NCBI GenBank assembly: GCA_937943575.1
Contig: CALEAV010000014.1
Location: 1-51,856 of the forward strand
DNA from: an uncultured bacterium
GTDB taxonomy: Bacteria > Desulfobacterota > Desulfobaccia > Desulfobaccales > 0-14-0-80-60-11
DNA: 51,856 bases
Direction: 5' to 3'
The notes below the pieces were generated by a model, which was not told the origin of the DNA, did no database searches, and worked only from the letters and a program-made list of their open reading frames with translations. The stretch's first letter is position 1, and every line of letters starts with the position of its first letter. A program made the translations under genes and the position numbers. Of the stretch, positions 17,335-51,193 are shown one piece after another.

Positions 17335-17412
17335 TGGGGTGAGCGACGGGATTTGAACCCGCGACCTCCGGGGCCACAACCCGGTGCTCTCACCAGCTGA
17401 GCTACGCCCACC
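17335..17412 (-). tRNA. tRNA-His (GTG)
   Basis: On the minus strand the acceptor stem GTGGGCG pairs with CGCTCAC (one G-U). The anticodon loop is TTGTGGC between CCGGG and CCCGG, giving anticodon GTG. The T-arm has GGTTCAAATCC, the discriminator is C73, and CCA is encoded at 17337-17335. The extra G-1 needed by histidyl-tRNA synthetase is at 17412, opposite C73. A possible promoter lies upstream on the same strand: GGGACA and TAGTAT, 16 bases apart, about 20 nt before the gene. Confidence 0.97.
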
Positions 17413-48020: not shown

Positions 48021-50003
48021 ATGCGCCTCGGCATCGATACCGGCGGCACCTTCACGGATTTCGTGGCCCTGGGAGAGGCAGGGGGCCAGGTCCACAAGGT
48101 GCCCTCCACCCCCGACAACCCCTTGCGGGCCGTGCTCCAGGGCCTGCAGGAGCTCTGTCCCCAGGGCCTGGCCGGGGCCGAGGTGGTTCATGGCACCACC
48201 GTGGGCACCAATGCCTTCCTCACCCGCCAGGGCGCCAGGGTGGTGCTGGTCGCCACCGCCGGCTTCGAGGAGGTGCTCTTCATCGGCCGTCAGACGCGGG
48301 GGGAGCTCTTCAGCCTCTCCCCCCGCCAGCCGCCGCCTCTGCTGCCCCGGGACCGGGTGGTGGGCGTCAGGGAGCGCCGGGCCGCAAACGGTGGCGTGAT
48401 TGTGCCCTTGACTCCGGAGGAAACGGAGCGGGTGCGGCGCCGGGTGGCGGAGCTGGCTCCGGAGGCCGTGGCCATCTCCCTTTTGCACGCCTATGCCTGG
48501 CCGGAGCATGAGGAACGGCTGGCCGACGCCCTGGCGGATCTGGGCGTGCCCCTTTCCCTCTCCAGCCGGGTGCTTCCCGAAATCCGGGAGTTTGAGCGCA
48601 CTGCCGCCACCGTCCTCAATGCCTACCTCACCCCGGTCCTGGAAAAGTATCTCATGGCCTGGGACCGGCAGGTGCCGCAGGCGACCCTCCATCTCATGCA
48701 TTCCGGCGGCGGCTGTCTCCCTGCCCGGCGGGCCACCCATCTGGGATTGGCCACGGTGCTCTCCGGGCCCGCCGGCGGGGTGGTGGGGGCCTGGAAGCTG
48801 GCCCGGGCCCTGGGCCGGGACCGGATCCTCACCCTGGACATGGGGGGCACCTCCACCGATGTGGCCCTGGCGGCCGGGGAGCTGCCGTTTACCTCGGACT
48901 ATGTCCTTCAGGGTTTCCCTTTGGGGATTCGGGTGCTGGACATCCACACCGTGGGGGCCGGCGGGGGTTCCCTGGCCCGGCGGGATCGGGGCGGGGCGCT
49001 GAGGGTGGGGCCGGAGAGCGCCGGCGCCGACCCGGGGCCGGCCTGCTACGGCCGGGGGGAGGGGGTGACGGTCACCGACGCCCAGCTTTATCTGGGGCGC
49101 CTCCTCCCCGAGGCCTTTCTGGGCGGCCGCCTGGCCCTGGAGGAACGGGCCGCGGCCCACGCCCTGGAGCGCCTGGCCCGGAAGTTTCCGGTCCCGCCCC
49201 GGGAGCTGGCCCGGGGCATCATCCGGGTGGCCAACACCCACATGGCCCGGGCGCTGGCCAGGGTGAGTCTGGAGCGGGGCCACGACCCCCGGGACTTCAC
49301 CCTGGTCTGCTTCGGCGGTGCCGGCGGCCTGCATGTCTGCGAGCTGGCCCGGGAACTGGGGGTGCGGCGCCTGCTGGTGCCGGCCCACGCCGGGGTGCTC
49401 TCGGCCCTGGGGCTGGCCCTGGCGGCGCCGCGGCGGGATGTCTCCGCCACCCTGCTTCTGGCCGGCCCGGCCCTGACGTGGGAAAGGCTCACCCGGGCGG
49501 CCCGGGAACTGGAGTCCCGGAGCCGGGCGGAGCTTAAGGCGGACGGTCTGTCGGCGGCCGCCTTTGCCGTGGCCGGCGAGGTGGAGCTGCGCTACCGGGG
49601 GCAGACCGACACCCTGGCCGTGCCCTTAAAACCCGATTTCCGGCAGCGCTTCATCGCCCGGCACCGGTTCCTCTACGGCCACGCCTGGGAGGACCGGGAG
49701 CTGGAGGCGGTGACTCTGCGGCTCCATTTCCTGGGTCCGGAGCCTTTCCCGGGTCCGCCGCCGCTGGCCCCGGCCCGCCCGGGCCCCCGGCCCACCCCCG
49801 TGGCCCGGCGGCGGCTGGTCCTGGAGGAGGGGGAATTTCGGGACGTGCCCTTCATCTGGCGCCCGGAGCTGAGCCCCGGGGACCTGCTGCGCGGTCCGGC
49901 CCTCATCGGGGAGGATTTTGCCACCCTCCTGCTCTTGAGGGGATTTCAGGCCCGGGTGACGGGGGAAGGGCACCTCCTCTTGGAAGATCCCGGGGCGGGA
50001 TAA
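48021..50003 (+). CDS. Hydantoinase/oxoprolinase A-type protein
   Basis: 660 aa. It starts LGIDTGGTFTDFVAL, the phosphate-binding motif of the HyuA/5-oxoprolinase/acetone carboxylase-beta family, with VHGTTVGTNAFL, LDMGGTSTDVALA, DIHTVGAGGGSLAR and ESAGADPGPACYGRGEG. Members use ATP to phosphorylate a cyclic amide or ketone before hydrolysis or carboxylation. They nearly always act with a HyuB-type subunit, which is not adjacent here: the gene ends at an intrinsic terminator. The substrate is not predictable. Confidence 0.88.
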   Translation: MRLGIDTGGTFTDFVALGEAGGQVHKVPSTPDNPLRAVLQGLQELCPQGLAGAEVVHGTTVGTNAFLTRQGARVVLVATAGFEEVLFIGRQTRGELFSLSPRQPPPLLPRDRVVGVRERRAANGGVIVPLTPEETERVRRRVAELAPEAVAISLLHAYAWPEHEERLADALADLGVPLSLSSRVLPEIREFERTAATVLNAYLTPVLEKYLMAWDRQVPQATLHLMHSGGGCLPARRATHLGLATVLSGPAGGVVGAWKLARALGRDRILTLDMGGTSTDVALAAGELPFTSDYVLQGFPLGIRVLDIHTVGAGGGSLARRDRGGALRVGPESAGADPGPACYGRGEGVTVTDAQLYLGRLLPEAFLGGRLALEERAAAHALERLARKFPVPPRELARGIIRVANTHMARALARVSLERGHDPRDFTLVCFGGAGGLHVCELARELGVRRLLVPAHAGVLSALGLALAAPRRDVSATLLLAGPALTWERLTRAARELESRSRAELKADGLSAAAFAVAGEVELRYRGQTDTLAVPLKPDFRQRFIARHRFLYGHAWEDRELEAVTLRLHFLGPEPFPGPPPLAPARPGPRPTPVARRRLVLEEGEFRDVPFIWRPELSPGDLLRGPALIGEDFATLLLLRGFQARVTGEGHLLLEDPGAG

Positions 50004-50114
50004 AAATTTGTCCGGGGGGCCAAGCTTTTGCATTTGATAAACTTGTAACTAAAACAAAGACTTAACCTCATCAAGAGTCTCAGGGGGCCTTCTCCGTCCA
50101 AATTTTTGAACTCC

Positions 50115-50143
50115 CCGGGCCCCCGATGTGGCGCCGGTTTTTT
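50115..50143 (+). terminator. Intrinsic terminator of the panE-hyuA-like operon
   Basis: CCGGGCC (50115-50121) pairs with GGCGCCGG (50130-50137) with one bulged G, around an 8-base loop, followed directly by six T (50138-50143). Confidence 0.7.
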
Positions 50144-50197
50144 CCTTTCCAGCCTTAACCATCTGAAAATAATTGCAAATATAGCCTTATCCCGTTT

Positions 50198-50213
50198 TGG
50201 CACAGAATCTGCA
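50198..50213 (+). promoter_or_regulatory. Sigma-54 promoter of the small RNA
   Basis: TGGCAC-AGAAT-CTGCA, preceded by TTT. The invariant GG (50199-50200) and GC (50211-50212) are correctly spaced; only two positions of TGGCACG-N4-TTGCW differ. The predicted start is G50224. Confidence 0.7.
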
Positions 50214-50223
50214 GAGGCAGTAA

Positions 50224-50339
50224 GGCGTATATGAACCCAACATAAGGTTCCCACATCCCCCCTTACAGAGTTCATATACCATTTTCTCCTTTCACCCGAC
50301 CGGCCGGGTTCCTCCCCCACCCGGCCGGTCCCTTTTTTT
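50224..50339 (+). ncRNA. Candidate sigma-54-dependent small RNA with C/U-rich loops
   Basis: About 116 nt. GTATATGAAC (50227-50236) pairs perfectly with GTTCATATAC (50270-50279); inside it TAAGG (50243-50247) pairs with CCTTA (50261-50265). A single-stranded linker TTTTCTCCTTTCACC (50282-50296) leads to the terminator stem. The apical loop (TTCCCACATCCCC), the linker and the terminator loop (TCCTCCCCC) are all C/U-rich and complementary to Shine-Dalgarno sequence. No plausible reading frame: the only ATG runs three codons to TAA. It has its own promoter and terminator and is insulated from hyuA by the terminator upstream. I match it to no named RNA family. Confidence 0.7.
50298..50339 (+). 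terminator. Strong intrinsic terminator of the small RNA
   Basis: Positions 50298-50309 pair perfectly with 50319-50330 (12 bp) around loop TCCTCCCCC, then CC and seven T (50333-50339). The opposite strand has no T-run, so it acts on plus-strand transcripts although no plus-strand gene lies within 290 bases upstream. Confidence 0.85.
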
Positions 50340-50341
50340 CC

Positions 50342-51193
50342 TCACTCCCGGGCCAGACGGTAATGCAGGGCGGTGATGAGCTGGCATAGAAGTTCGCCCT
50401 CGATCCTGGCCTTCTGGAGATATCCCGTCAGGCCGATGGCCCCGGTGGCCGCCGCCACCCCCACCGGACCGAGAAGGAGGCCCAACAGGGAGCTGGTGAG
50501 CAAATACGCCTTGAAGGGCAGAGTGATTCCCAGGAGCAGAGACAGGGCCTTGAGCCCGGTGGCGGCGGCCAGGTAGACCCCAAAGCCCGTCATTTTCAGG
50601 GCGGCGATGGTCCCCAGGGTCAGCGAGCCGGTCCTCAGCATGGCCACCAGCGCCTGGGCCGACAGCCTCTCCAGGCCCAGGGCCTGGCGGATGGCCTCCT
50701 GCTCCCCGGCGCTCATCTTCTCCAGGAGCCTCCTCAGGTGCTCCTCCAGCCGGGTCTGCTCCTCCGGGGATAACTGCTGCAGACTCTCCTCCAGCTGCCG
50801 CAGCATCCGCTCCAGGGATTTTTCTGAGACCTGCGCTTCCAGCTGCGCCAGCGAGGGCAGGTCCGTTTTGATTCCCAGATGCCGGGCAGCCGCCAGAAGC
50901 GCCTGGCGGGACACCGTCTCCGGGTTGTCCCGCTTGGCTCCCCTCACCCCCCCCAGGTCGGCCAGGCGGTTATAGAGCCGGCGGCGCAGACCCTGGTCGG
51001 TGAGGTCCTCCAGCTCCCGGCGCCTCTTCCCGAGCTCTTCCTCCAGGGGGTGGCGGGTGCTTAGGCGCAGCCGACGCAGGCCGCCAAAGACCATTTCCTT
51101 CATGCCGGTGCGCAGCCCCAGGGTGTGGGAGACCGCGGCGAGATCCAGCAGTTCCTCCCGGGTCAGCTTATCCAGGGCCGCCAGAAACACCAT
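50342..51193 (-). CDS. Helical membrane-associated protein, YaaW/UPF0174-like
   Basis: 283 aa. The N-terminal two thirds are charged helices (ELGKRRRELEDLTDQGLRRR, MLRQLEESLQQLSPEEQTRL) and the last third has hydrophobic segments with LGITLPFKAYLLTSSLLGLLLGPVGVAAATG, resembling the conserved core of the poorly known YaaW family. ATG 51193 lies inside the end of the upstream gene (26-nt overlap) and has GAGAGGGG before it, so the two are translationally coupled. Biochemical function is unknown. The family assignment rests on architecture and the LPF-x-Y...GPVG pattern. Confidence 0.6.
   Translation of the reverse strand: MVFLAALDKLTREELLDLAAVSHTLGLRTGMKEMVFGGLRRLRLSTRHPLEEELGKRRRELEDLTDQGLRRRLYNRLADLGGVRGAKRDNPETVSRQALLAAARHLGIKTDLPSLAQLEAQVSEKSLERMLRQLEESLQQLSPEEQTRLEEHLRRLLEKMSAGEQEAIRQALGLERLSAQALVAMLRTGSLTLGTIAALKMTGFGVYLAAATGLKALSLLLGITLPFKAYLLTSSLLGLLLGPVGVAAATGAIGLTGYLQKARIEGELLCQLITALHYRLARE

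Follow-up and report, generated by a model that had tools for sequence, protein, structure and literature searches.

Does the short interval between two genes near the end of the window encode a regulatory RNA and, if so, what would switch it on and what would it do? The window is the whole stretch of 51,856 nucleotides (nt) from an uncultured bacterium of the order Desulfobaccales (G000:C14:1-51856, G000 being our label for the genome). The original prediction, made from the letters alone, had proposed an autonomous sigma-54-dependent small RNA (sRNA) with three segments resembling anti-Shine-Dalgarno (anti-SD) sequences. Judged by sequence comparison, the locus is a real, evolutionarily conserved bacterial sRNA gene. 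Its RNA is probably the relocated and duplicated output of a phylum-wide, Hfq-free module that joins a two-component system, sigma-54 and an sRNA.

Structure and conservation of the sRNA gene

The elements of the gene are the following.

50197-50213, plus strand: sigma-54 promoter TTGGCACAGAATCTGCA, an exact consensus match, with GG at 50199-50200 and GC at 50211-50212 in correct spacing
50224-50339, plus strand: sRNA gene, from the predicted start to the end of the T run (fold, order-wide conservation, covariation)
50227-50279, plus strand: stem-loop 1 (sequence, fold, alignment, covariation)
50250-50262, plus strand: anti-SD-like segment 1, the C-rich loop CCCACAUCCCCCC, mean unpaired probability 0.85, conserved
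50282-50293, plus strand: anti-SD-like segment 2, the linker UUUUCUCCUUUC, mean unpaired probability 1.0, common to all siblings and distant relatives
50298-50339, plus strand: intrinsic terminator (sequence, fold), with six pairs changed on both sides
50310-50318, plus strand: anti-SD-like segment 3, the terminator loop UCCUCCCCC, mean unpaired probability 1.0, conserved

The promoter has the layout TTGGCAC-N5-CTGCA and is the sole match to the sigma-54 consensus in the window when up to one mismatch is allowed (chance expectation 0.32). From its correct GG/GC spacing, the RNA start is predicted near 50224. The predicted RNA forms two hairpins. In the first, an outer stem of 10 base pairs (bp; GTATATGAAC/GTTCATATAC, 50227-50236/50270-50279) encloses a nested stem of 5 bp (TAAGG/CCTTA, 50243-50247/50261-50265). 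The linker between the hairpins reads CAUUUUCUCCUUUCACC in the window. It is followed by the 12-bp terminator stem (GACCGGCCGGGT/ACCCGGCCGGTC, 50298-50309/50319-50330), whose loop carries CCUCCCCC, then by CC and seven T (50333-50339). The fold reaches -39.6 kcal/mol, against -19.5 in shuffled sequences (z -7.6; 0/200 shuffles as good).

BLAST with a 156-base query retrieved homologs from 27 of 29 Desulfobaccales genomes, in families f1 and f2; G021 and G027 alone gave none, and elsewhere in the phylum the search returned no match below E 0.008. With a covariance model, the sRNA was found in all 18 Desulfobaccales genomes sampled. The 10-bp stem, the nested stem and the terminator are common to the 38 copies aligned, and pairing is kept in 94% of the alignment cells. 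Changes on both sides occur at 11 of 28 pairs, and compensatory changes are present in both main stems. Compensatory cells number 38 against 8.3 in shuffles, a level reached by 0/500 of them; kin sequences may beat such shuffles without any structure, and here both the fold and controls in which the pairing was slid, abolishing the signal, agree with the covariation. Some of the most constant positions of these copies are unpaired: the loop CAUCCCCCCCUUAAUC, the linker UUUUCUCCUUUCACC and CCUCCCCC in the terminator loop. A -24/-12 element precedes nearly all homologs. The sRNA is multicopy in many genomes, and in several of them copies with separate promoters follow one another in tandem at intervals of about 310 nt.

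Lying between two genes, the downstream one convergent, the locus might instead hold the 3′ untranslated region or terminator structure of a neighbour, or an unannotated short protein gene, next to a chance promoter match. The strength of conservation and covariation, the tandem and dispersed copies with a promoter on each, and the lack of a credible reading frame among the three on the transcript strand make this highly improbable; a short protein gene was rejected on the coding-potential check of those frames.

The sRNA represents a family absent from Rfam, as no family matched the locus at the gathering cut-offs of Rfam 15. The best weak cmscan match was LhrC (RF00616; 20.2 bits against a cut-off of 110, E 1.1), and a permissive search gave 18.7 against 41 for suhB/mmgR (RF00519) and 18.4 against 58.8 for ar14 (RF02344). 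Exact-pattern matches beyond the Desulfobaccales in a collection of species (Burkholderiales, Muribaculaceae, Ferruginibacter, Pseudoalteromonas, Kiritimatiellaeota, Chitinophagales) are likely due to chance, the sigma-54 promoter being absent from the 110 nt upstream.

Much of the original prediction is borne out by these data. Direct reading reproduced its coordinates for the -24/-12 promoter with its GG/GC spacing, the stems, the linker, the terminator and the seven T, and the three transcript-strand frames agree with its view that no credible reading frame is present. Its sigma-54-type sRNA gene is conserved and its stems, for which it had asked for conservation and covariation, carry compensatory changes; the new family that it thought possible is new as far as Rfam is concerned.

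A kinase, an NtrC-family regulator and a shared palindrome

Both marks of sigma-54 dependence are present, the GG-N10-GC element and an encoded RpoN. A candidate for the activator comes from more distant families: in f51 and f7, genes for a histidine kinase and a response regulator of the NtrC family stand immediately before the sRNA. The regulator has Response_reg, Sigma54_activat and HTH_8 domains and is AtoC-like by NCBIfam score, below the cut-off. In Desulfobaccales, f16 and others, each genome has one clear best match to it, which leads the next activator by tens of orders of magnitude, and a conserved kinase (A2) adjoins the ortholog. The sensor of this kinase is small and extracytoplasmic, with a weak sCache_3_2 match below the cut-off. 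In the window's genome the regulator is encoded at G000:C7:3855-5219 with the kinase just upstream, unlinked to the window sRNA. Regulator matches at E <= 1e-135 occur in 154 of 395 Desulfobacterota genomes, the lower scorers being perhaps paralogs.

Downstream of the regulator stop codon, a sigma-54 promoter was found at 25 loci from 11 families, at a distance of 120-390 nt. Behind each of these promoters comes UUUCUCC, UUUCCUCC or a near variant, and behind nearly all, by inspection, a terminator. When the phylum was scanned for the promoter together with UUUCCUCC, 67 matches came up, compared with 13 for a reversed control; by a hand count, 17 of the 67 lie downstream of the regulator at no more than about 400 nt. 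A linker match at G032:C42 was set aside as chance, lacking a promoter; the true copy of that genome adjoins its regulator. At two f7 loci (L184, L220), two tandem sigma-54 sRNA genes about 200 nt apart stand behind the kinase/regulator pair, the second with the terminator loop GUCCCCCCCCAG. Related regulators at L250 (f38) and L256 (f91) have a C-terminus unlike the Fis-type helix-turn-helix and resembling another DNA-binding domain; their genomes also hold promoter plus UUUCCUCC matches, sometimes two.

A further element lies upstream of the window promoter.

50096-50111, no strand assigned: palindrome GTCCAAATTTTTGAAC, the putative site of the NtrC-family regulator, with one mismatch to GTWCAAANNTTTGWAC

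With up to two mismatches allowed, GTWCAAANNTTTGWAC occurs in the 200 bases upstream of 72 of 87 distinct sRNA copies, against 0.5 expected from Markov shuffles. In five f16 genomes searched, GTWCAAANNTTTGWAC has a sole genomic match, upstream of the sRNA. Regulator-linked loci mostly carry the same palindrome, often twice, so that it marks linked and unlinked sRNA copies alike; it was not recognised in family f7. The common recognition helix of the regulator is TKSLLQYK or TKSLIQHK, and in three cases helix and palindrome depart together: SRHLMHYK with GTTAAAATATTTTAAC, EKNLLKYK with GTAAAATTATTTTTAC and GKSGLSKK with GTTTCCANNTGGAAAC. Of the indirect evidence that the regulator would read the palindrome, this co-variation is the strongest.

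Three points weigh against this assignment. The correlation from which we infer direct binding of the regulator to the palindrome is imperfect, as regulators with the helix GKSGLNQK (f85, f37) keep the common palindrome GTTCAAAATTTTGAAC. Family f18 retains the regulator, yet no sRNA was found there. Orthology of the regulator was assigned by best hits, not by a tree. The sRNA could then be under sigma-54 control through a different activator, such as NtrC or another enhancer-binding protein, the two-component link being coincidental at this locus; the f18 case would fit, as would the unlinked position of the regulator in the window's genome, which encodes many other NtrC-type activators. Such an arrangement would leave unexplained why one palindrome stands before linked and unlinked copies and why helix and palindrome shift together in three cases, and we consider it decidedly unlikely. 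At four f18 loci (L241, L244, L245, L260) the regulator has the usual recognition helix, and neither an adjacent sRNA nor a clear palindrome was found.

The dedicated NtrC-family regulator stays the favoured activator. The original prediction had suggested nitrogen control, which gains no support from site or regulator: both point to this regulator and to a kinase with an extracytoplasmic sensor.

Sibling RNAs and predicted action

The covariance model also yields a second, shorter RNA type (GGUUACCCCCGAAA...CCAAUUUCUCCUUUCUCC, with CCUCCCCCUCCC in the terminator), which has its own sigma-54 promoter and is present in most f1 genomes. The window's own genome holds one outside the window (L086, G000:C14:169816-169906, minus strand), with a separate sigma-54 promoter and palindrome upstream. 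L042, L043 and L044 (family f2, genus g11) represent a third type of sibling, GAGCGAGAUUCCCCCUUAAUC...CCAUUUUCUCCUUUCUCC, which likewise has a sigma-54 promoter. Following weak covariance-model matches in family f16, we came upon a distant type, in which the promoter is the same, the linker (CCUUUUCUCCUUUCC) is closely similar and a terminator is present; a promoter-plus-linker pattern search recovered it again. Across types the linker alone is universal, and the C-rich loops are lineage additions. A phylum-wide conserved two-component system apparently controls at least two sibling RNAs, the window sRNA among them, and the term autonomous in the original prediction has to be qualified to that extent.

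The three segments named in the original prediction are all accessible, at the unpaired probabilities listed above. Predicted pairing with SD sequences reaches -20.0 kcal/mol for the linker with GAAAGGAGAAAAUG and -19.7 for the C-rich loop with GGGGGGAUG; against too strong a reading of these values, C/U-rich single strands complement the SD sequence almost by definition, and energies alone do not show targets. Hfq was found in none of nine Desulfobacterota genomes (G000, G001, G007, G022, G024, G033, G042, G079, G098), the five control genomes being positive, so sRNA regulation in these nine must work without it. From the accessibility of the segments, their SD pairing, the universal linker, the presence of RpoN and the absence of Hfq, we infer that the RNA most likely acts by repressing translation at ribosome-binding sites.

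The explanation that we think likely as a whole is a two-component-driven, sigma-54-dependent, Hfq-free trans-acting sRNA that represses at SD regions. It draws on sequence and comparison for the gene, the promoter, the conserved structure, the palindrome, the kinase/regulator pair, the presence of RpoN and the absence of Hfq. A histidine kinase in the membrane, carrying a small extracytoplasmic sensor, would phosphorylate the NtrC-family regulator (G000:C7:3855-5219), which would bind GTCCAAATTTTTGAAC at 50096-50111 and activate the RpoN-holoenzyme at 50197-50213. The holoenzyme would transcribe an RNA of about 115 nt, ended by its own terminator. The hairpin loop, the linker and the terminator loop would offer three single-stranded C/U-rich segments for pairing with the SD regions of target mRNAs, whose translation would be repressed without Hfq.

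A real sRNA under the same regulator might have another main action: its C/U-rich segments could sequester an RNA-binding protein, or its highly conserved 3′ arm and linker could address one dominant target in place of SD sequences in general. The 3′ arm plus linker (GUUCAUAUACCAUUUUCUCC) is indeed more constant than the 5′ arm, beyond the needs of stem pairing. The element universal across distant families is, however, the pyrimidine linker UUUCUCC/UUUCCUCC, which matches SD complementarity, and the transcript has no GGA motif, for which reason a CsrA decoy was rejected. We regard such an alternative as rather unlikely and retain repression at SD regions.

Genomic setting and known systems

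Two further features precede the sRNA gene in the window.

48021-50003, plus strand: hydantoinase/oxoprolinase gene (Pfam PF01968/PF05378), the preceding neighbour outside the sRNA unit, recurring at related loci
50115-50143, plus strand: weak hairpin resembling a terminator, behind the preceding gene (sequence and fold)

The original prediction had taken this hairpin for a separate terminator ending the preceding operon; the hairpin is there, and at -11.6 kcal/mol it is only moderate. Hydantoinase/oxoprolinase, PanE-like and HisG genes are often kept as neighbours at homologous loci. A convergent open reading frame of 283 amino acids (50342-51193, minus strand), without Pfam match, ends 3 nt past the T run of the sRNA. 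The sole Rfam gathering match in the window is a transfer RNA gene (17338-17411, minus strand).

By analogy, the closest precedents are PxrK/PxrR-Pxr, regulator-RNA pairs of Desulfovibrio vulgaris and LhrC; the window RNA would work like them and is filed as a member of none. RsaE/RoxS and the cuckoo RNAs, invoked originally, are analogies only, and LhrC and Pxr stand closer. In Myxococcus xanthus, the kinase PxrK and the NtrC-like sigma-54 regulator PxrR are encoded immediately upstream of the approximately 108-nt sRNA Pxr, which has a sigma-54 promoter and an enhancer region and, in some species, paralogs; no Hfq homolog is present, and the published accounts restrict Pxr to myxobacteria and call its direct targets uncharacterised (PMC5684412, PMC10217877, PMC5568312). 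By gene order and published description, this is the order seen in 11 Desulfobacterota families. The window sRNA shares with Pxr a sigma-54 promoter and an upstream activator region, and its system shares the paralogous copies and the absence of Hfq. Unlike Pxr, the window copy is not beside the kinase/regulator pair, although its relatives in the 11 families are, and it has two predicted stem-loops where Pxr has three.

In D. vulgaris, published accounts describe two NtrC-family regulators with a sigma-54-dependent non-coding RNA (ncRNA) just downstream (DVU0679/Dv_sRNA2 and DVU0653/ncRNA), the DVU0679 RNA being given as expressed and of unknown function (PMC3333781, PMC4641369). These pairs resemble our regulator-plus-RNA loci by description only. 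Listeria LhrC (RF00616), for which Hfq is dispensable, is likewise laid out with three sites and controlled by a two-component system (PMC4132741), which is analogy and not homology. It differs in belonging to Firmicutes, and the window RNA falls far below its Rfam cut-off. LhrC is not known to be a sigma-54 RNA. For Qrr (under LuxO) and GlmY (under QseE/QseF), published accounts describe regulators that activate sRNAs from sigma-54 promoters, Qrr coming as siblings; lineages and regulators are different there. Qrr sRNAs work with Hfq, and the window RNA is unlike such Hfq-dependent trans-acting sRNAs in that Hfq was not found in its host genome.

Tentatively, an ancient kinase/regulator/sigma-54/sRNA module might be common to Desulfobacterota and Myxococcota, with Pxr as its myxobacterial branch. 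Its sRNA would be a broad Hfq-independent anti-SD repressor, which in Desulfobaccales would have become unlinked, been duplicated and gained extra pairing sites.

In sulfate reducers and their relatives, only a small number of regulatory RNAs are understood. Here a defined sRNA family can be presented together with the promoter, the activator site, the regulator and the sensor kinase that probably control it; it is also present in complete genomes, and every step is testable. It may thereby give a comparative handle on two questions, the role of the sigma-54 ncRNAs of D. vulgaris and the working and origin of Pxr.
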